Shown here in pieces: positions 12,226 through 20,982 of a stretch of 50,543 nucleotides of DNA. Every line of letters starts with the position of its first letter. The stretch's first letter is position 1. The notes under the pieces are model-generated. The model did not search any database. It was not told the DNA's origin and worked only from the letters and a program-made list of their open reading frames with translations. The position numbers were made by a program, and so were the translations under genes. Source of the DNA: Bordetella genomosp. 4 (GTDB lineage: Bacteria; Pseudomonadota; Gammaproteobacteria; Burkholderiales; Burkholderiaceae_B); contig NZ_NEVQ01000002.1 of the NCBI RefSeq assembly GCF_002261185.1, positions 1 through 50,543 on the forward strand. The letters run 5' to 3'.

Positions 12226-13239
12226 ATGGAACGAACCGGATCAGGTTTCGACTTTAACTTCAACGACATTGCGGTTTTCGTACAAGTCGCGAAACAACGC
12301 AGCATCTCCCGCACCGCGGAGCAGACGGGGATGCCCGCATCGACCGTGTCACGCCGCCTGAGCATGCTGGAGGAACGTCTTGGCGTACAGCTCCTGTCGC
12401 GCACGACCAGGCGCATCCTGCTGACAGAAGCAGGGAAGCTTTATTACGAACACTGCCATCAACTCATTGAGCAGGCGCAGGACGCGCAAGACCTATTGCT
12501 GGACCATGGTGCACAGCCACGCGGCACCCTCAAGGTACTGCTACCGGACATGCTGGACGCCATTGAACTGCCTGTTTTCATTCCGCAGTTTGCGCGCGCC
12601 TGGCCTGAACTGCAGTTTCGCTATGACTATCACCACGGCCCGCAGTGGGAACAGCATCGCGATTTTGACGTCGCGTTGCGTTGGGGTACACAGCTCAACA
12701 GCGATCTAGTCGCGCGCAGTATCGCTCAGATCGAATTCGGTCTCTATGCTTCCGAAGACTATCTCAAAAAGCGTGGCATGCCTAAACATCCCGGTGAACT
12801 GACGCTGCATGATTGCGTTTATGCCGACCTATGCAAAGAGCTCGTCAGCTGGACCTTTCGCAGCTCGGGACAGCCGCTCGTGGTCGAACCGCAAAGCCGT
12901 CTCGGCCTCAGTGACATGAACCTGGCACACCGTCTCGCATGCGAAGGCGCCGGCATCGTGGCCTTGCCGCTTTCGACAAAGATCGACGAATCATTGATAC
13001 CGGTTCTGCCCACGTGGCGGCTTGCTCCGATCACGCTATATGCCATGTATTCGGGCCGCACGCCGCCCGCCCGAGTCCGGGTTTTTATCGATGCGCTGAT
13101 CGAGCATGCCAAAGGACGGCATGCAGGTGTACCGAACTCGAAATTTTCCCTAAAGCACACGCCAAGCCCATCCCAACCGGATCATCGTCTCGTCAGCAAG
13201 TCAGCGCTCCGGCACATAGATCATGCGTCCGTCATCTAA
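12226..13239 (+). CDS. LysR family transcriptional regulator
   Basis: 337 residues. Helix-turn-helix at about residues 15-75 (FNDIAVFVQVAKQRSISRTA, then TGMPASTVSRRLSMLEERLG), then a LysR effector domain of the CrgA/DsdC-like subgroup. The frame is open back to 12148, but the ATG at 12226 follows AAAAGGG by about 9 bases and sets the helix-turn-helix at the normal distance from the N-terminus. The last 39 bases overlap the convergent DUF2149 gene, so the C-terminal tail is longer than usual. It may bind the half-site cluster just upstream. Whether it controls the metal-uptake operon next door is unknown. Confidence 0.87.
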   Translation: MERTGSGFDFNFNDIAVFVQVAKQRSISRTAEQTGMPASTVSRRLSMLEERLGVQLLSRTTRRILLTEAGKLYYEHCHQLIEQAQDAQDLLLDHGAQPRGTLKVLLPDMLDAIELPVFIPQFARAWPELQFRYDYHHGPQWEQHRDFDVALRWGTQLNSDLVARSIAQIEFGLYASEDYLKKRGMPKHPGELTLHDCVYADLCKELVSWTFRSSGQPLVVEPQSRLGLSDMNLAHRLACEGAGIVALPLSTKIDESLIPVLPTWRLAPITLYAMYSGRTPPARVRVFIDALIEHAKGRHAGVPNSKFSLKHTPSPSQPDHRLVSKSALRHIDHASVI

Positions 13240-13509
13240 ACGGTACGTCACGCCCGCCCGGGCGCCCTGCCCTTGTCCGACCTCGCCACTTGATTCATAT
13301 CGCGTCAACTCCTGGCCCTCTTTGATCGTGATACGCATATCCGATTCGCCAGGATTCTCGACCACGACAACTTTATCTTGTGAAAACGGGCTCAAAGGGT
13401 TCTCGGCAATCACCACCATCAAGACACCAATGATCACCAGGAATAAGTCAATCAGATTGACGACTGACAGCATGGGATCATTGGCTTCGTCGTCATCGAG
13501 GAAGCGCAT
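13201..13509 (-). CDS. DUF2149 protein, ExbD-like topology
   Basis: 102 residues, starting at an ATG that overlaps the preceding stop codon by one base (TGATG). A single transmembrane helix near the N-terminus reads NLIDLFLVIIGVLMVV, preceded by DDDEANDPMLSVV. It resembles the ExbD/TolR helix, including an in-membrane Asp (residue 21) where ExbD has its proton-carrying Asp. The remaining 60 or so residues would lie in the periplasm. DUF2149 proteins are known to occur beside CobN-like and MotA/TolQ/ExbB-like genes. I infer that it is the second subunit of an ion-driven motor with the next gene. Last gene of the receptor operon. Confidence 0.8.
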   Translation of the reverse strand: MRFLDDDEANDPMLSVVNLIDLFLVIIGVLMVVIAENPLSPFSQDKVVVVENPGESDMRITIKEGQELTRYESSGEVGQGQGARAGVTYRLDDGRMIYVPER

Positions 13510-14021
13510 CACAATCCTCCCTTGTCTTGACGCTGACGCTCGAGGTCGCGCAGATCCTGTAATAACCAACGCCGGCGTATCGTCAAGATAAAGAAACAGA
13601 TACTCGCTGCCAACAGCGCCAAGATAACAGCGGAAAACGCAGCAACCATATTGCGGCCCACGGCGGCGCCGTCGTTATTGCCCAGCGCCAGCAATGCCGG
13701 TCCCATGGGAATCATGGTCGCAATCAGACCCAGCATCGGCGCAGAGCGTGACACAATGCGCAGCCATTCCAATTGCCTCATGATCCACAGCTCAATGTCG
13801 TCGCTGGTTAGCCTGTTTCCGTTCCCATATGTTGCCCTATCGGCAAACACAAACAATGCCCGAGGATGAGAAGACCTCCGCCGCTGCCAGGCCTCGACGG
13901 CAAATGCTCCCAGCATGAACAGGGCATAACCCAAGGCCAAAGCGATCAACAACATCACCGGGGCCAAAAAAACACGCGACACGGCATATAGCAGCGTTTC
14001 GATTTCCGCAAAAAAAGACAT
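13509..14021 (-). CDS. MotA/TolQ/ExbB proton channel family protein
   Basis: 170 residues with three hydrophobic helices: about 16-40, 105-125 and 128-152. The family signature before the second helix reads SRSAPMLGLIATMIPMGPAL, equivalent to the APLLGLLGTV motif of ExbB/TolQ. ExbB-type proteins form the pentameric proton channel that powers outer-membrane transport or periplasmic work. AGAGGG lies 4-5 bases before the ATG and 20 bases separate it from the chelatase-like gene. There is no tonB gene beside it, and its partner seems to be the DUF2149 protein instead of a normal ExbD. Confidence 0.87.
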   Translation of the reverse strand: MSFFAEIETLLYAVSRVFLAPVMLLIALALGYALFMLGAFAVEAWQRRRSSHPRALFVFADRATYGNGNRLTSDDIELWIMRQLEWLRIVSRSAPMLGLIATMIPMGPALLALGNNDGAAVGRNMVAAFSAVILALLAASICFFILTIRRRWLLQDLRDLERQRQDKGGL

Positions 14022-14041
14022 AAACCCTCTGAGATGATGTG

Positions 14042-17000
14042 TTATTGCATAGCGCGGCGGACGTGCCGGCTACGCAATCCCTGACGCAATGCGCCGCTAC
14101 CGAGCAAAATCAGCATCAGCAACAATACCCACCGGGACGAAATGTCCTCGGAAACCGCAGCGGGTTCGACGGGCTCCAGGACTTGCCCCTGAACAGACTG
14201 CGGCGACTCTGCAGCGGGAGAGTCGGGCTGGTTCGGTTTTGCCGCAGGCACGGCATTCGACGTAGCGCTTGCCTCCAGACCGAACCCCTGGGCCATATCG
14301 GCAATGTACTGTCGTGTCACCTCGGCGCCGGTATCGACGTCGAACCGCTGCGCCAGCTCCTGCCAACGTTCTGCCAACGCCCGGCGCGTCTGCTCCGAAG
14401 CGTCCCAATACCCTTTTCGAATCGCTTCCGCCATACGCTCCAGCACCTGGGCCTGTGCCGTCGGATTGTGTTGTTCGAACCATTGCCGGGTTCCCAGCGC
14501 CCGCGTATCGCTGACGTAGGTATCGAACAGAGCCTGCCACTGATCGTCACGCACCGTACTAGCATCCGCCGCCTGCCAGCCAAAGAGGTTGTTCGTCACG
14601 TTCAATACCTGCAACGTGCCGGAGTATCCTTCTTTCTGCATGGCCTCTATCCATCGTGGGTTCAAGTAACGCTCGCGCAATTCGGCAGACAAGAAGCGTG
14701 CGAGCCCCGTGGTCCGGATCTCACCGTCGCGCAGGTCAGAGATCATCAGTTGAGGTGCCTGCCCATCGAGATGACGGACCGCAGCCGATAGCCCCCCCAA
14801 AAACTCGAACGGGTGATCCGTGGACAACACGCCATGCAATGTGGACGAGCGCGACATGATGACTGCCTGGGTTCCTCGCAACTGCGCGGCAAACACATTG
14901 GCTTGTGCCGGACTCTCACCCCACCCCTCTGCGCCATAGGCATATTGGCTGCTGAGCAAGAACTGTTTCCCCAACGCCGCGTCATCGTCCCATTGAGTCG
15001 AATCCAGCGCCAGATGCGGCACACCCGTTCCGTATTCGCCGGGCGCATTGCTGAAAATGCGATAACGGGCTGCCACGGCTGCTGCGTCAGCAGAAAGGCC
15101 TGCCTCGTTCAGCGCGGCTGCAGTACGCTGATTGTTGAGTGCAATCGGATTACCGGGCTCGTTCAACGCGGCCAGTCTTGTCAGTGCCTCATCCAGCAGG
15201 CGCATGAAACTGTCGAACTGATCGCGATACACCCCTGTGACCTGCACCACCACGTCAACCCTGGGACGGCCCAACTCGGCAGTGGGGATGATGTCCAATG
15301 AGACAACCCTTCCACCACTATCCCAAACCGGCCGCAAGCCCAGTGCGTGCAGGACCTGCGCCTCGGTCACCCCTAGATGCCGAGTCGCCTCGGACGCCCA
15401 TAGACTGAATGCGAGCTTTTGCGGCCGGGCTCCCGCATGTTCATGTTGAAAAGCCTGTACCAATTGCTCATAGGCAGTGGCAGCCGCTTCATAGGCCGCC
15501 TGCGTAGGCACCTTGTCGGCCTCGAAGGCGTATAAATTTCGCCCACTGCGCACGTCCGGATTACGTATGGGATCTCCCCCCGCACCGGGAATAACAAAGC
15601 GCCCTGCCAGACCTGCCAATAACATGTCGTTCTCTTGCGTGTCTTGCAGATGCGCATCCAGCTCGCGAGCGCGCTGCTCGAATACCGCCAGTGAGGAGGG
15701 CATCTCATTTCCGGCGGGGCTCAACATCTGCGCTACGGCGTGATAAGCGGGACTATCCTGCAATCCCTGCTCACCCGCAAAACGTTCGTCCTGGTCGATA
15801 TCCAATGCGTCGTACAAAGGCCGGCCCAATTGCTGCATCACCGTGCTGATACGATGCTCGACCTGTGCCGCCTGGCCGAACGTGTGCAATCCCAGGGGCA
15901 TGGCACGGCGGGCCAGCTCATGCAGATGATCATGCAACTGCTGCAGAAAACCACTGAAGTCCTGCTCGGCCTGTTGCGCAGTCCATCCCAGATCGTCGTT
16001 CAGATGAGCCTGAACCGCGGCACTGCGAATCTGATGGCTGACCTGCTCACGCACCGCCCCGTCGTCGAGTTGCTGGTACTCGTGAATCCATTGATGCAGA
16101 TCGCGCAGTTGATCGTACAAGCCCGCAGGCGCAAACGGCGGCGTCTGGTGGCTGACGATGACAGCACGTCCCCGGCGTTTAGCCTGAATAGCCTCGCTCA
16201 CGTTGTCCTGGATGTATGGATAGAACACAGGCAGATTACCCACGCTGAGCCACGGATAATCCGTCGCCGCCAATCCTCGATCCTTGCCGGGTAACCATTC
16301 CTGCGTGCCATGCGTGCCTAGATGGATCAATGCATGGGCTGCATACTGCTGCTGCAAATACAGATAGGCCGCCATATAGAGGTGGTCGGGAGCACTGCTC
16401 ATGTCATGATAGTGATCCCCTGCGCCAAAGGCCCGCGGCATTTGCGGCATCACCACGAAATTCCCGAGCTGCCAACGCGGAATCACAAAGTAGCGCTTGC
16501 CCTTTATTTCCCGTACCGCCTGATGCTGTGCGGGAACGCCTGCTCGCCGCAACTCGTCTTGACGCGCAACCGGCAACGCCGACAACCATTGTTCATAATC
16601 CTCCAACGGGTAGAGCGCTGCTAGATCGTCATCCAGCAGCGACTCTAGCGGCACGGTGCCATACAACGCGCCCAGCATACGCTGCGCCGTTTCAATGATT
16701 TCGGTTTCACCGACGGGCTTTCCCACCGCGTATCCCTGCGCTGCCAACGCCGCCTGGATAGACATGATGCTTCTGGGAATATTCAGGTGCGAAGCTCCCA
16801 GATTTTTCTCGCCAGCTGGATAGTTCCAGAACATCAATGCCAGCTTTTTCTGTGGCTCTGGCGTGTGACGCAACGCGACGAGGCTGCGCAACTTTCCCAT
16901 CAAGGCATCGACTTGTGCAGGCAGCAGGTCGCTGACACCTGCAGTGCTCGCAGACAAGACGAGCGGGTCGCTGACTCCCCAGCCTTCGGGGCCGGCCAAA

Positions 17001-17974
17001 AACACCGCCGTCGTGCGCGAACCGATACCGCTGGCCGCATCTGGCCACGCGCTCGCCTCCCCTTCGCGAAATCTCAGCGTCTGCAGCACCGGCACATCGA
17101 GAGCCAGAAAATCCCGGCTGCGCGCCGCGCCATTTTGCAGATGAGTCAGATTGACCAGGGCATCGATGTTGCCCTTTTTTAATGCCCCGGCCAACCCGGC
17201 TGAGCTCTGGCCATCAAACCAAAAGACGATCGGCAGCAGGCCCTCGGCCTCGCTACGCCTTATCAGTTGGTCTACCTCACGGGTAAGCAGATCGGCAACT
17301 ACCCCTTGATGAATGAGAAAGGCAATGCGTCCTGCGGAGGACGGATCGCCCACAGGCGTGGACATTACTGGCTGCCTGACGGAGGTGTACCAGTGCAAGT
17401 ATCCATCGATATTGTCAAAGACGTGCGGTGCATCCGGGTGATAAAACCCGGCAGCAGGTAGACGCGCAGGTGGATCCAACAACGGAAACGGCAGCTCGGC
17501 GCCTTCGCTCAGCGCCTTGGCCAACGCAAAGAAATGACCGAAATTCTCAGCTCCGCCCGCCGTATAAAGCGCTACCATCGCCTTGCCGTACTGAGGCGGC
17601 AATTGCTCCCAGACAGGCTTGCCTGCGCCGATGATCAGACGAGGACGAATAGCGCTTGGCGACAGTGCTTGCACGTGCCGCTGTACGGCGTCTCGGTCAG
17701 TGGGCCTAGGAACATCCCATATCAGCAATGCTGCCTGTTCAATTGCACGCGCCAACACGTCAGGCGTAGCCTGCTCGACGTTCAGATGCTGCAACGTCAC
17801 GGATTGCTGTGTAGCGAGCGGCTGCAAACGCTGAAACTTCTCTGCGGAAACAAATCCCGTGTGCAGCACCTGTATGACGGCCCTGTCTTGCGCAACGGAC
17901 AGCGTCGGCCACATCGCCGCAAACACCACCAGAACCAGCCAACGCCACAAGGCGTGTTGATATAAACAGGCCAT
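14042..17974 (-). CDS. exported CobN-like class I chelatase subunit
   Basis: 1310 residues, full length for CobN/ChlH/BchH (class I chelatase large subunit). Unlike cytoplasmic CobN it begins with a signal peptide (cleavage near TLSVAQ, residue 28) and ends with one transmembrane helix (about 1280-1298, WVLLLMLILLGSGAL) and a basic tail, so the body should lie in the periplasm, anchored to the inner membrane. The conserved CobN core motif reads HLGTHGTQEWLPGKD near residue 555. CobN inserts cobalt into a corrin ring with the CobS/CobT ATPase; no such ATPase is encoded here and ATP is absent from the periplasm. Removing a metal from a macrocycle, as proposed for HmuS-type relatives, or carrying a metal chelate is more plausible. 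Its ATG overlaps the receptor stop by one base. Confidence 0.88.
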   Translation of the reverse strand: MACLYQHALWRWLVLVVFAAMWPTLSVAQDRAVIQVLHTGFVSAEKFQRLQPLATQQSVTLQHLNVEQATPDVLARAIEQAALLIWDVPRPTDRDAVQRHVQALSPSAIRPRLIIGAGKPVWEQLPPQYGKAMVALYTAGGAENFGHFFALAKALSEGAELPFPLLDPPARLPAAGFYHPDAPHVFDNIDGYLHWYTSVRQPVMSTPVGDPSSAGRIAFLIHQGVVADLLTREVDQLIRRSEAEGLLPIVFWFDGQSSAGLAGALKKGNIDALVNLTHLQNGAARSRDFLALDVPVLQTLRFREGEASAWPDAASGIGSRTTAVFLAGPEGWGVSDPLVLSASTAGVSDLLPAQVDALMGKLRSLVALRHTPEPQKKLALMFWNYPAGEKNLGASHLNIPRSIMSIQAALAAQGYAVGKPVGETEIIETAQRMLGALYGTVPLESLLDDDLAALYPLEDYEQWLSALPVARQDELRRAGVPAQHQAVREIKGKRYFVIPRWQLGNFVVMPQMPRAFGAGDHYHDMSSAPDHLYMAAYLYLQQQYAAHALIHLGTHGTQEWLPGKDRGLAATDYPWLSVGNLPVFYPYIQDNVSEAIQAKRRGRAVIVSHQTPPFAPAGLYDQLRDLHQWIHEYQQLDDGAVREQVSHQIRSAAVQAHLNDDLGWTAQQAEQDFSGFLQQLHDHLHELARRAMPLGLHTFGQAAQVEHRISTVMQQLGRPLYDALDIDQDERFAGEQGLQDSPAYHAVAQMLSPAGNEMPSSLAVFEQRARELDAHLQDTQENDMLLAGLAGRFVIPGAGGDPIRNPDVRSGRNLYAFEADKVPTQAAYEAAATAYEQLVQAFQHEHAGARPQKLAFSLWASEATRHLGVTEAQVLHALGLRPVWDSGGRVVSLDIIPTAELGRPRVDVVVQVTGVYRDQFDSFMRLLDEALTRLAALNEPGNPIALNNQRTAAALNEAGLSADAAAVAARYRIFSNAPGEYGTGVPHLALDSTQWDDDAALGKQFLLSSQYAYGAEGWGESPAQANVFAAQLRGTQAVIMSRSSTLHGVLSTDHPFEFLGGLSAAVRHLDGQAPQLMISDLRDGEIRTTGLARFLSAELRERYLNPRWIEAMQKEGYSGTLQVLNVTNNLFGWQAADASTVRDDQWQALFDTYVSDTRALGTRQWFEQHNPTAQAQVLERMAEAIRKGYWDASEQTRRALAERWQELAQRFDVDTGAEVTRQYIADMAQGFGLEASATSNAVPAAKPNQPDSPAAESPQSVQGQVLEPVEPAAVSEDISSRWVLLLMLILLGSGALRQGLRSRHVRRAMQ

Positions 17975-19959
17975 CAGAATCTCGCCGTCAGACCAGCAAA
18001 GTAACGCCGTCCCTCATCGGCTCGGCCGTAGATATCAGCATCGTCATTAGCGAGCCGCTCATCGGTCAGGTTTTCAATACCTGCATGCAAGCTCAAATGG
18101 CTATTGACGTCATAATCCACGTACCAATGCAACAAGGTATAGCCCGGGCGGTCGCTTTCCGTCGCAGAGCGATATTGCGAACCGATGTATTCGGCCCGGA
18201 CCCGGGTATCCAGCCTGTCCGTGACACCCCAGGTCAGCGTCGCATTGGCGCGATGCCTGGAACGGTCCGCCAAGCGTTCTCCGGTCGTGCGATCCTCAGC
18301 ATCGAGGTAGGTGTAGTTGGCATCCAGGCGTACGTTGTGCAGCACATCGACGCCGGCAGTCAGCTCCAGCCCCTGCAGTCTCGCCTTAGAAACGTTCTCG
18401 TACTCGAGACACACTCGTCCTGGTACGTAGCAAGTTGGCTGCCGCACCGTCTCGATCAGGTTTCTCACGTCGTTGTGAAACAGCGTCACGCCCGCAGACC
18501 AACGCGGCTGCTCATATGACAGCCCAAACTCATATGAGCGATTGGTTTCCGGTTGCAGTTGCGGGTTGCCGCGAACGATTCCTCGTCCGCCCATTGCCGC
18601 TCTGGACTCATAGTCCGGTGACAATTGCTTGAGCGTGGGCGCCTTGAATCCCTGGCCAAAACCCGCCTTTACCGTCCACGCCGAGGTCGGGCGAAACATC
18701 AAGTAGGCCCGAGGACTGGACTCCCAGCCAAAGTCCTCGTGGTGGTCAAAACGGCTGCTCAGCACCAATTCCCATTGTTCACTGAAGAGAATTTCGTCTT
18801 GGGCAAAAAACGCGTAATGATCCAAGGACGCCACGCCGCGCTGATTGACCGATGGGTCCTCCAACCGTTCGCGCCGCGTTTCGGCTCCGAGTGTCAGCTT
18901 GTGCATCTGGCCTAGCGCAAAACCCACGCGCCCATCCAACACCGTATCGGTGAAACGATTGGGACCTGTCGCATCGCCACCGTCGCTGCGCCACGCGTGG
19001 CGATCGAGCGTCGAACGATACAACCGGATCTGGCTATCGCCCCAGCTCCAGTCGCCCGTGTGCGAAATTGCATATCGACGACGATTGACTTTATTTTCCG
19101 ACTCGTAGATCGAATTGTCGGTGTTGCTGCGATAAGCCTCCAGGTCTTCGTGCCCTGCATCGACCGACACATCAATGCGCTGCCGGGAGTCGGGCGTCCA
19201 GCTCAGGCCCACATGCCCAGATATCGCACGCCGTTCGTCCAATGCCGTCAACGCCGTATTGCCGGCATCGTGCAGCGGCGCCCGGCGATTGAACTCGCCC
19301 CACACATTCAACCCCAGTGTTCCCGGCACGATGGGGCCGCCGAGATAAAAGCCGCTCTTGTACTGATTGCCATCCAGCCCGTGGTCATTCAAGACCGCGT
19401 AGCTGCTGAACGAACCCTGCCATTCATCGGTAGCTTTGCGGGTAATGACATTGACCACGCCTCCCAAAGCCTCGGAACCGTACAGCGAGGACATGGGGCC
19501 TCGTACCACCTCCACCCGTTCGATTGCCTCGGTCGGCACCCAACCCAGCTCGAAGTCGGAATGAGAGATGGCTGAGGCAGAGGCGTTGATACGCTGCCCA
19601 TCGATCAGCATCAGCGTGTGTTCCGCGCTCATGCCCCGAATCGAGATGCCCCGGCGCCCCAGACCGGCGTCTTCCAGTCCCACTCCGACGGTATCTTGCA
19701 CCGCGTCAGCCAGATCCAGGACGGGCTGTCTACGCAGCGACTGGCCGTCGATCACGGTCACGCTCGCTGGCGCCTCGGCCTCGTTGCGTTCCCAAGCGGT
19801 TGCCGTCACCACGACTGGCGACAGCGTGGACGGGTGAGCCCCCTGGCCTGGTTGGCGCCGCTCTGCGTCGTCTTCCTCTGCCCATGCGGCCCCGCTCACG
19901 GTGGCGAGGACGATCAAACAACCGGCCGCGACGTCGCGGCCTGCATTTAATTTACACAT
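17974..19959 (-). CDS. TonB-dependent outer-membrane receptor (CirA/IrgA type)
   Basis: 661 residues: signal peptide (AAWA-EE, about residue 27), a TonB-box-like LSPVVVTAT, plug domain (RGPMSSLYGSEALGGVVNV) and a 22-strand barrel ending in Phe (GLTARF). It takes up a scarce ligand, usually a metal chelate, across the outer membrane using TonB energy. The FKAP...NPQL region near residue 430-455 matches the FRAP/NPNL loop of haem and catecholate receptors, but no His lies between them, so haem binding in the classical way is unlikely. First gene of the four-gene operon; a Zur-like box lies 87-101 bases upstream of the start codon. No strong ribosome-binding site is visible. Confidence 0.92.
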   Translation of the reverse strand: MCKLNAGRDVAAGCLIVLATVSGAAWAEEDDAERRQPGQGAHPSTLSPVVVTATAWERNEAEAPASVTVIDGQSLRRQPVLDLADAVQDTVGVGLEDAGLGRRGISIRGMSAEHTLMLIDGQRINASASAISHSDFELGWVPTEAIERVEVVRGPMSSLYGSEALGGVVNVITRKATDEWQGSFSSYAVLNDHGLDGNQYKSGFYLGGPIVPGTLGLNVWGEFNRRAPLHDAGNTALTALDERRAISGHVGLSWTPDSRQRIDVSVDAGHEDLEAYRSNTDNSIYESENKVNRRRYAISHTGDWSWGDSQIRLYRSTLDRHAWRSDGGDATGPNRFTDTVLDGRVGFALGQMHKLTLGAETRRERLEDPSVNQRGVASLDHYAFFAQDEILFSEQWELVLSSRFDHHEDFGWESSPRAYLMFRPTSAWTVKAGFGQGFKAPTLKQLSPDYESRAAMGGRGIVRGNPQLQPETNRSYEFGLSYEQPRWSAGVTLFHNDVRNLIETVRQPTCYVPGRVCLEYENVSKARLQGLELTAGVDVLHNVRLDANYTYLDAEDRTTGERLADRSRHRANATLTWGVTDRLDTRVRAEYIGSQYRSATESDRPGYTLLHWYVDYDVNSHLSLHAGIENLTDERLANDDADIYGRADEGRRYFAGLTARF

Positions 19960-20045
19960 CGTTATTGGATTTCATTGCGCCGCGTCGTCAGAGCCAGCGT
20001 TTGGGCTTTGATGAATATCGATCACGGCCGATTCAAAAAACGATA

Positions 20046-20060
20046 TGTTATATCATAACA
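20046..20060. promoter_or_regulatory. putative Zur (zinc repressor) box
   Basis: TGTTATATCATAACA is a near-perfect palindrome (6-base arms, 3-base centre). Against the proteobacterial Zur consensus TGTTATAnTATAACA it differs at one position (C for T). The Fur consensus fits much less well (4 of 7 in the left half). It sits in the 204-base divergent region, 86 bases from the TonB receptor and 103 bases from the alpha/beta hydrolase, so it could control either or both. Assignment rests on my memory of the consensus. Confidence 0.7.
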
Positions 20061-20163: not shown

Positions 20164-20982
20164 ATGCAGACCGTCAGCACCCACGATACGTTTATCCCTA
20201 CCCCAGGCGGCCGTCTGTTCGCCCGCAACTGGACACCCGGCAAATCCAGTGATGGCCACACGCCGATTGTCTTGCAGCACGACTCACTCGGATGTGTGGA
20301 GCTGTGGCGGGACTTTCCCGAACAACTGGCCATCGCCACCGGCCGGCCGGTCATTGCCTATGACCGCCTGGGCTTTGGACGGTCGGATCCGCGTCCGGGG
20401 ATGGTAGGAGTGAACCTGGTCGATGAGGAAGCTCACGGGGATTTTCGTACGGTGCTCGACACCCTGGGCGTCGAGCGGTTTATTACCTTTGGCCACAGCA
20501 TCGGCGGCGGAATGAGCATTGCCTGTGCTGCCATGTATCCCGACACATGTGTTGCCTTGATTACGGAATCCGCCCAGGTCTTTGCCGAAGCCCATACCTT
20601 GGAAGGAATCCGGCAAGCCAAAATCGCGTTTGCAGAGCCGGGGCAACTGGACCGGTTAAAGAAATATCATGGCGACAAAGCCGCCTGGGTGCTGGCCGCC
20701 TGGACAGAAACCTGGCTATCGCCAGCCTTTGCCGACTGGAATCTGAACAAGCATCTGAGCAAAGTGCGTTGCCCGGTATTGAGCCTGCATGGTGACAACG
20801 ACGAGTACGGCTCACTGGAACACATGCACCGTATTCACGCCCTGACGGGGTCCACGACCGCGATCATGGAAGGCTGTGGTCACCTGCCGCACCGGGAGAA
20901 ACCGCAAGCCGTGATAACGATCATCCGCGATTGGCTGCAAACGGCAGACATTCCCGATCAGCCTCGTCTGATCAAGCGCTGA
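20164..20982 (+). CDS. alpha/beta hydrolase
   Basis: 272 residues with a complete catalytic triad: nucleophile Ser in GHSIGG (about residue 110), acid in HGDNDEYGS and His in CGHLPHRE. Esterase, thioesterase or C-C hydrolase activity is possible. No signal peptide, so cytoplasmic. GAAGAG lies 6 bases before the ATG. It is divergent from the TonB receptor across the Zur-like box and heads a run of plus-strand genes to 25497. If Zur-controlled, it could act on an imported ligand or on metallophore turnover, but nothing in the sequence proves this. Confidence 0.85.
   Translation: MQTVSTHDTFIPTPGGRLFARNWTPGKSSDGHTPIVLQHDSLGCVELWRDFPEQLAIATGRPVIAYDRLGFGRSDPRPGMVGVNLVDEEAHGDFRTVLDTLGVERFITFGHSIGGGMSIACAAMYPDTCVALITESAQVFAEAHTLEGIRQAKIAFAEPGQLDRLKKYHGDKAAWVLAAWTETWLSPAFADWNLNKHLSKVRCPVLSLHGDNDEYGSLEHMHRIHALTGSTTAIMEGCGHLPHREKPQAVITIIRDWLQTADIPDQPRLIKR

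Follow-up and report, generated by a model that had tools for sequence, protein, structure and literature searches.

The 50,543-nucleotide stretch analysed here, called the window throughout, is the start of contig NZ_NEVQ01000002.1 of Bordetella genomosp. 4 (assembly GCF_002261185.1, positions 1 to 50,543). Its open reading frame (ORF) list places four minus-strand ORFs within 13201..19959, encoding in order of transcription a TonB-dependent receptor, a CobN-like protein, an ExbB-like protein and a DUF2149 protein (Table 1). The genes are tightly packed: the receptor and CobN-like frames overlap by 1 bp (TGATG), a gap of 20 bp precedes the ExbB-like frame, and this frame in turn overlaps that of DUF2149 by 1 bp. 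These coordinates agree with the four genes and three junctions given in an earlier note made from the sequence of this DNA. The best start of the DUF2149 ORF is the ATG at 13509, with its end at 13201, and the protein crosses the membrane once, in a segment (NLIDLFLVII, by eye) that holds a conserved Asp. In the receptor, a TonB-box-like TLSPVVVTAT was recognized by eye, and the nearest NCBIfam model is CirA, at 405.9 bits under a cut-off of 745. The CobN-like protein has a signal sequence at its N-terminus and a transmembrane segment at its C-terminus (both by eye), and is thus expected to be a periplasmic protein anchored, like HmuS, to the inner membrane.

Table 1. Coordinates of the operon, its predicted operator and the divergent neighbour in the window.
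Feature	Position	Strand	Basis
Zur-type operator (predicted), 20-bp near-palindrome CGATATGTTATATCATAACA	20041..20060		genome 18-mer match; matrix 32.2 bits
TonB-dependent receptor, 661 aa	17974..19959	-	Pfam plug and barrel
CobN-like protein, 1310 aa	14042..17974	-	Pfam CobN-Mg_chel, 981 bits
MotA/TolQ/ExbB-like inner-membrane protein, 170 aa	13509..14021	-	Pfam MotA_ExbB, 30 bits
DUF2149 protein	13201..13509	-	Pfam DUF2149, 96.7 bits; alignments
Alpha/beta hydrolase, divergent	20164..20982	+	ORF; Pfam Abhydrolase_1

Upstream of these genes, TGTTATATCATAACA occupies 20046-20060, 86 bp ahead of the receptor start. The earlier note had taken these 15 bases for a Zur-type box; sequence and place stand, but the extent does not, as the operator covers 20 bp. 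At three or fewer mismatches the window holds two matches to TGTTATATCATAACA, which are the two strands of a single palindromic site; this count was equalled in 8 of 100 shuffles. In the 5.53-Mb genome, the exact 15-mer occurs in only two places, the window operator and C1:131212. The latter is an intergenic region flanked by znuCBA and, opposite, by the second FUR-family gene of the genome, of zur type, which a COG0523 GTPase gene follows. The two sites are identical at 18 of the 20 bases corresponding to 20041-20060, and their core 18-mer is found exactly nowhere else in the genome. With one mismatch the 18-mer lies ahead of a second TonB receptor in the znu cluster, and with two mismatches directly ahead of a ZIP zinc transporter; an associated expectation of 0.0005 is not a clean test, the pattern having been composed after the sites were known. 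Another one-mismatch copy (L009:9018, G000 C9:350017) lies ahead of an HGSNAT-family gene that is followed by a porin, and the znu cluster of this genome also contains DUF1007 and NicO genes (L007:8465-10260).

A Zur matrix was built from 14 znu/COG0523-locus promoters of relatives, with the window's own genome left out, so that its zur/znu, ZIP and second-receptor sites were unused. For training, 15 of 30 promoters qualified by differing from a hand-typed consensus at no more than five positions; as this consensus came from CobN-operon promoters, the matrix is not fully independent, and being specific to the window's family it tells little about other phyla. On this matrix the window operator scores 32.2 bits, compared with 13.8 bits for the next-best position that does not overlap it. 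Across 46 related loci (572 kb), 32 of the 36 sites of at least 20 bits fall within 500 bp of the start of a receptor, CobN or ExbB-like ORF; one of the other four is the true promoter of the operon in L085, the start of which had been called wrongly, and the remaining three adjoin znuA or a FUR-family gene. Because the operator is common to the zur/znu promoter and has near-copies at the second receptor and the ZIP transporter, the predicted control of the four-gene operon by Zur is strongly supported and, for a computational result, nearly certain; the response to zinc starvation that the earlier note proposed fits this regulon. Control by a cobalamin riboswitch was considered and rejected: RF00174 matched 173 of 250 family genomes, the window's own only once and weakly, and among the matches listed none lay at an operon (by eye, strict filters).

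The same gene order of receptor, CobN-like, ExbB/D-like and DUF2149 proteins, with a Zur site and strong induction under zinc limitation, is in print for PA1922-PA1925 of Pseudomonas aeruginosa, as the earlier note had stated (PMC4542158, PMC8531726, PMC9431628). In a znuA mutant these genes are reported to be induced 147-, 122-, 45- and 56-fold, and a Zur site is predicted for them (PMC4542158). In electrophoretic mobility shift assays, Zur is reported to bind the PA1922 promoter even with zinc chelated (PMC8531726), and PA1925 is named as a DUF2149 protein (PMC9431628). The likeness is one of gene order as these papers describe it, in another organism for which what they say of the operon assigns no function either.

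Among solved structures, the CobN-like protein best matches HmuS (9d26, 400 bits), the de-chelatase by which gut bacteria free iron from haem. Residue H555, in a GTHG motif, corresponds to HmuS H538, replacement of which by Ala is reported to abolish activity (PMC12583661). The HmuS motif LSLDHxxEFMGG (D1208, H1209 and E1212) reads LSTDHPFEFLGG here, giving a second site STDHPFEF in which D1053, H1054 and E1057 are kept, with L changed to T and M to L. A neck histidine, H278, aligns with H254 of the HmuS HGR motif, but is followed by LQ instead of GR. H555 and H1054 are invariant in 13 of 13 proteins. The methionine-rich insertion of HmuS was not found in the window's protein, which has 45 residues between two aligned blocks compared with 215 in HmuS. 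At the level of the operon, HmuYRSTUV of Bacteroidota shares the receptor, CobN-family, ExbB-like and DUF2149 genes, the bis-His site and the neck His; it differs in its haem and iron context, compared with the Zur-type context here. The lead from HmuS-type proteins in the earlier note was thus correct, points to recent work (PMC12583661) and is strengthened by the match at the level of residues.

Canonical CobN, which works with CobS/CobT, has in common with the window's protein the fold family and the first-site His, canonical rows reading GKHG. Its second site, however, is of the SDDYYQF type, with Asp and Gln at the positions of H1054 and E1057 (in the solved chains and, by alignment, in four more), and the window's protein differs further in its signal sequence, its membrane anchor and the presence of ExbB/DUF2149 in place of AAA+ partners. 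In NCBIfam, the protein reaches 1664.5 bits on NF004644 'cobaltochelatase subunit CobN' (cut-off 1248); the eight other CobN/BchH models that matched stayed under their own cut-offs, so the CobN name alone is not decisive. TIGR01651 gave no CobT match in the window's genome, and the operon's own protein is the only member of the CobN family there; a free-standing cobaltochelatase for B12 was rejected on these two grounds.

To place this active site among relatives, 124 loci were considered. A short, split or unlinked CobN ORF left 23 of them unclassed (2 with a Zur-type site, 16 without and 5 not scorable), and in 5 classed loci the upstream DNA was too short for scoring; L085 was corrected by hand, and one of two CobN-like genes was classed in L179. 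A Zur-type site was present at 19 of 27 bis-His loci and at 9 of 13 loci with neither histidine, compared with none of 54 His-Asp loci (highest score 17.3 bits) and neither of the two that combine His with another residue. None was seen either in a hand-listed beta/gamma His-Asp subset (0 of 18, the sequences being related). The eight bis-His operons lacking a site are L050, with a split receptor ORF and no Zur-type site in its 13 kb; L069-L072; an Azospirillum locus; and the hmu loci L119 and L123, for which the scored start is not the true operon start, HmuY and receptor genes preceding it. A class-wide search for close CobN relatives returned 6 of 369 genomes, including the window's; in the other five no site reached 20 bits, and the three of these that could be classed were His-Asp.

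On a FastTree phylogeny of 106 proteins, for which the tool warned of long branches and composition, nine His-Asp proteins join the window clade (22 rows), and the hmu-operon proteins are placed with three members of the window's family ('type C'), both with local support of 100. HmuS-like sites thus occur in two clades that lie apart. We report as new a CobN-like protein that, judged by alignment, carries both HmuS active-site histidines and the neck His, yet belongs to a separate clade. The presence of a Zur-type site requires at least nine changes on this tree. All three type C loci are under Zur-type boxes; znuA adjoins both L046 and L052, and a FUR-family gene adjoins L046 and also L049, where COG0523 is a further neighbour. 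Such relatives within the HmuS clade, lying beside zur-type, znuA or COG0523 genes under predicted Zur-type boxes, are also new here.

In the receptor, H133, H193, H249 and H611 are kept in 12 or 13 of the 13 Zur-boxed clade receptors; in L069-L072, which have no box, all four are gone and the neck His is replaced by Met, indicating that regulator, receptor and neck site changed together there. A small membrane-protein-like gene precedes the receptor in L069, L070 and L072 (DUF2946 by Pfam in L070), with a terminator-like hairpin seen by eye. The 13 proteins lacking both histidines comprise L178 and a clade of 12 that retains ExbB-DUF2149 partners (L182, L183, L186, L187, L194, L205, L206, L175, L188, L197, L173 and L181). 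In this clade both active-site histidines are replaced, by Q or N and by M, the first being a residue reportedly strictly conserved in the superfamily.

On balance, these features make it probable that the operon is Zur-repressed and serves to take up chelated zinc, in all likelihood as a zinc tetrapyrrole, with the CobN-like protein removing the metal in the periplasm. When zinc is short, Zur would leave the operator at 20041-20060, and the receptor would import a zinc-carrying chelate such as Zn-porphyrin. The membrane-anchored CobN-like protein would hold the ring between the axial histidines H555 and H1054 and release the metal, as HmuS does from haem, whereupon the freed zinc could pass to ZnuABC and/or the ZIP permease of the same regulon. 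In the open-licence PMC literature, no title among the matches listed ascribes a zinc-porphyrin or zinc de-chelatase role to such an operon. Zinc de-chelation by the CobN-like protein, if true, would make zinc porphyrins a source of zinc for bacteria and widen the HmuS story from iron to zinc.

In a rival reading, the CobN-like protein might instead strip metal from a non-tetrapyrrole metallophore, siderophore-like or amino-acid-derived, or from a mixed Zn/Co chelate. The receptor's nearest model, CirA, is a catecholate siderophore receptor, and no His occurs in its stretch between FKAP and NPQL, where haem receptors have one. The clade without active-site histidines shows the fold to be usable without a haem-type site. 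P. aeruginosa uses pseudopaline, and a Zur-dependent use of pyochelin-cobalt is reported as well (PMC11481552). We nevertheless regard a metallophore as somewhat unlikely: the characterized chelatase-superfamily members discussed in the HmuS paper act on tetrapyrroles (PMC12583661), and the set of bis-His and neck-His residues is kept across the window clade, save for the neck in L069-L072. Import of free or weakly bound zinc, with the CobN-like protein serving only as a periplasmic zinc chaperone or store, is called likely for PA1922 in a review (PMC10393844), and the four extra receptor histidines of the Zur-boxed clade would suit it. It leaves unexplained why H555, the His on which the chelatase depends, and H1054, the second axial His, are conserved, and for the window we consider it unlikely.

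A cobalt or corrinoid salvage system, switched by Zur because cobalt can replace zinc, appears still less likely. Cobalt is reported to repress the P. aeruginosa Zur regulon (PMC13083405) and cellular cobalt to rise in the znuA mutant (PMC4542158), and some relatives of the operon lie within B12 or nickel gene clusters. However, the loci of this kind in Runella and Trichlorobacter have the His-Asp site, the class in which no Zur-type site was found, with L126 (bis-His, nikR nearby) as the exception to the His-Asp pattern. The riboswitch and CobT searches described above also speak against a corrinoid role.

Several observations weigh against zinc-tetrapyrrole uptake and de-chelation as the function of the operon, or against parts of that proposal. 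At three or fewer mismatches the 18-mer occurs in 12 genome places and its reversed control in 9, so that its meaning rests on the matches with zero to two mismatches; a looser 15-mer pattern, TGTTATANNATAACA, gives 17 matches at up to two mismatches and 30 for the reversed control, and only its exact or near-exact matches are informative. Within Pseudomonas, the PA1922 Zur site is reported to be unique to P. aeruginosa, in the same review that supposes free-zinc uptake for PA1922 (PMC10393844), and PA1922-PA1925 have also been linked to cobalt (PMC4542158, PMC8531726). A site is missing from 5 of the 24 bis-His operons belonging to the window's own family (L050 and L069-L072), and L057, which is divergent and Zur-boxed, retains H133 alone of the four receptor histidines. 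The second Zur-boxed clade of the same module lacks both active-site histidines; zinc control thus does not require a bis-His active site. The window's CobN-like protein falls outside the HmuS clade on the tree and has no methionine-rich insertion, and its operon, unlike HmuYRSTUV, has no HmuY or HmuT. The sole magnesium-chelatase H subunit (BchH) row in the alignment also scored as bis-His, which means that two such histidines do not prove de-chelation. Finally, zinc needs no reduction step such as that proposed for haem.

The ExbB-like and DUF2149 proteins raise a separate question of what they energize. DUF2149 is found in 39 of the 250 family genomes and the CobN family in 38, with both in 36 (Fisher 1.6e-37). 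Of the three genomes with DUF2149 only, G129 and G138 hold truncated copies and G202 falls under the cut-off; those with CobN only are G114, which is in pieces, and G196. A DUF2149 scan of the genome collection, in which a Trichlorobacter sequence served as the query for confirmation, was confined to the best 80 of 562 relatives. DUF2149 was accompanied by a CobN-like ORF in 79 of these 80 loci, the exception being L138, where the contig ends. Where at least 4.5 kb was available on both sides (49 loci), CobN-like and ExbB-like ORFs were present in all 49 (the former on the opposite strand in L200) and a TonB receptor in 40, absence of a receptor referring to the near locus only, as one may lie elsewhere in the genome. 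Pfam identified no receptor among nine large unassigned ORFs from seven of the nine receptor-less loci; a tenth, in L142 outside this set, was a receptor missed by the first search. The closer tracking of CobN than of the receptor by ExbB-like and DUF2149 genes is new here. A supposed CobN-less arrangement of receptor, ExbB and DUF2149 ('type D') was rejected on finding CobN downstream.

The pair may be partners of the CobN-like protein and not of the receptor. CobN and ChlH use AAA+ ATPases, and a periplasmic relative would be without ATP. We tentatively propose, as a rather doubtful possibility, that ExbB-like and DUF2149 proteins form a proton-driven motor of periplasmic CobN-family (de)chelatases, replacing the cytoplasmic AAA+ CobST/ChlID. 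The receptor-chelatase-motor module would then be fitted to Fe in haem, Ni, Co or Zn through its active site, receptor and regulator, and the window would hold a zinc version that strips tetrapyrroles of their zinc. HmuS is reported to de-chelate haem without ATP, but with only one to two turnovers (PMC12583661), which on this proposal would reflect the missing motor; that purified HmuS works at all without ExbB-like and DUF2149 proteins argues against it. An hhalign comparison of DUF2149 with ExbD gave a probability of 6 percent and an E value of 0.006 over 18 columns around the transmembrane Asp. If true, this would be a third kind of chelatase motor.

Quite possibly, however, the pair energizes the TonB receptor and not the CobN-like protein. 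HmuU/HmuV have been so assigned (PMC12583661) and a receptor role has been suggested for PA1924 (PMC4542158), in keeping with the ExbB homology of the 170-aa protein in Pfam and with the receptor still being present in 40 of the 49 well-flanked loci. The constant presence of a CobN-like ORF in those loci and the co-occurrence of DUF2149 and CobN across family genomes count against this reading. So do the classical exbB-exbD genes that also occur in L122 (annotated) and in L134, L136, L140, L149 and L208 (by phmmer, several weak), and the genome of Methanosarcina acetivorans, an organism with no outer membrane, which matches both DUF2149 and CobN.

The module occurs in varied settings. It forms part of hmu-type operons in Bacteroides and Aureibacter, with HmuY, and in Prevotella; it lies inside a hydrogenase-maturation cluster in Runella and on a plasmid with nikR nearby in Azospirillum, while in Trichlorobacter it belongs to a B12 cluster that has a separate exbB-exbD-tonB after it. 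NikR-like ORFs are also present in L142, L145 and L190. The gene adjoining ExbB-DUF2149 is a weak DsbD_2/NicO-like match under the cut-offs in L120 (5105-5731), a DUF2162 predicted transporter in L122 (5753-6454) and HmuT, with no Pfam match, in L119 (6681-7394); HmuT may be a metal permease. A plasmid of Paracoccus alcaliphilus (L125:3581-4735) carries DUF2149 next to repC, together with a Zur-type site and a short piece of a receptor gene, with no CobN in the stretch examined, and looks like a remnant. On a Diaphorobacter plasmid (L128), a His-Asp CobN-like gene lies between two TonB receptors and is followed by ExbB-like, DUF2149 and ABC-transporter genes.

In the window itself, the divergent alpha/beta hydrolase gene shares its intergenic region with the operator and is a candidate member of the system. 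In PAO1, PA1921 is reported to be 15-fold induced and is given the same Zur site value (PMC4542158).

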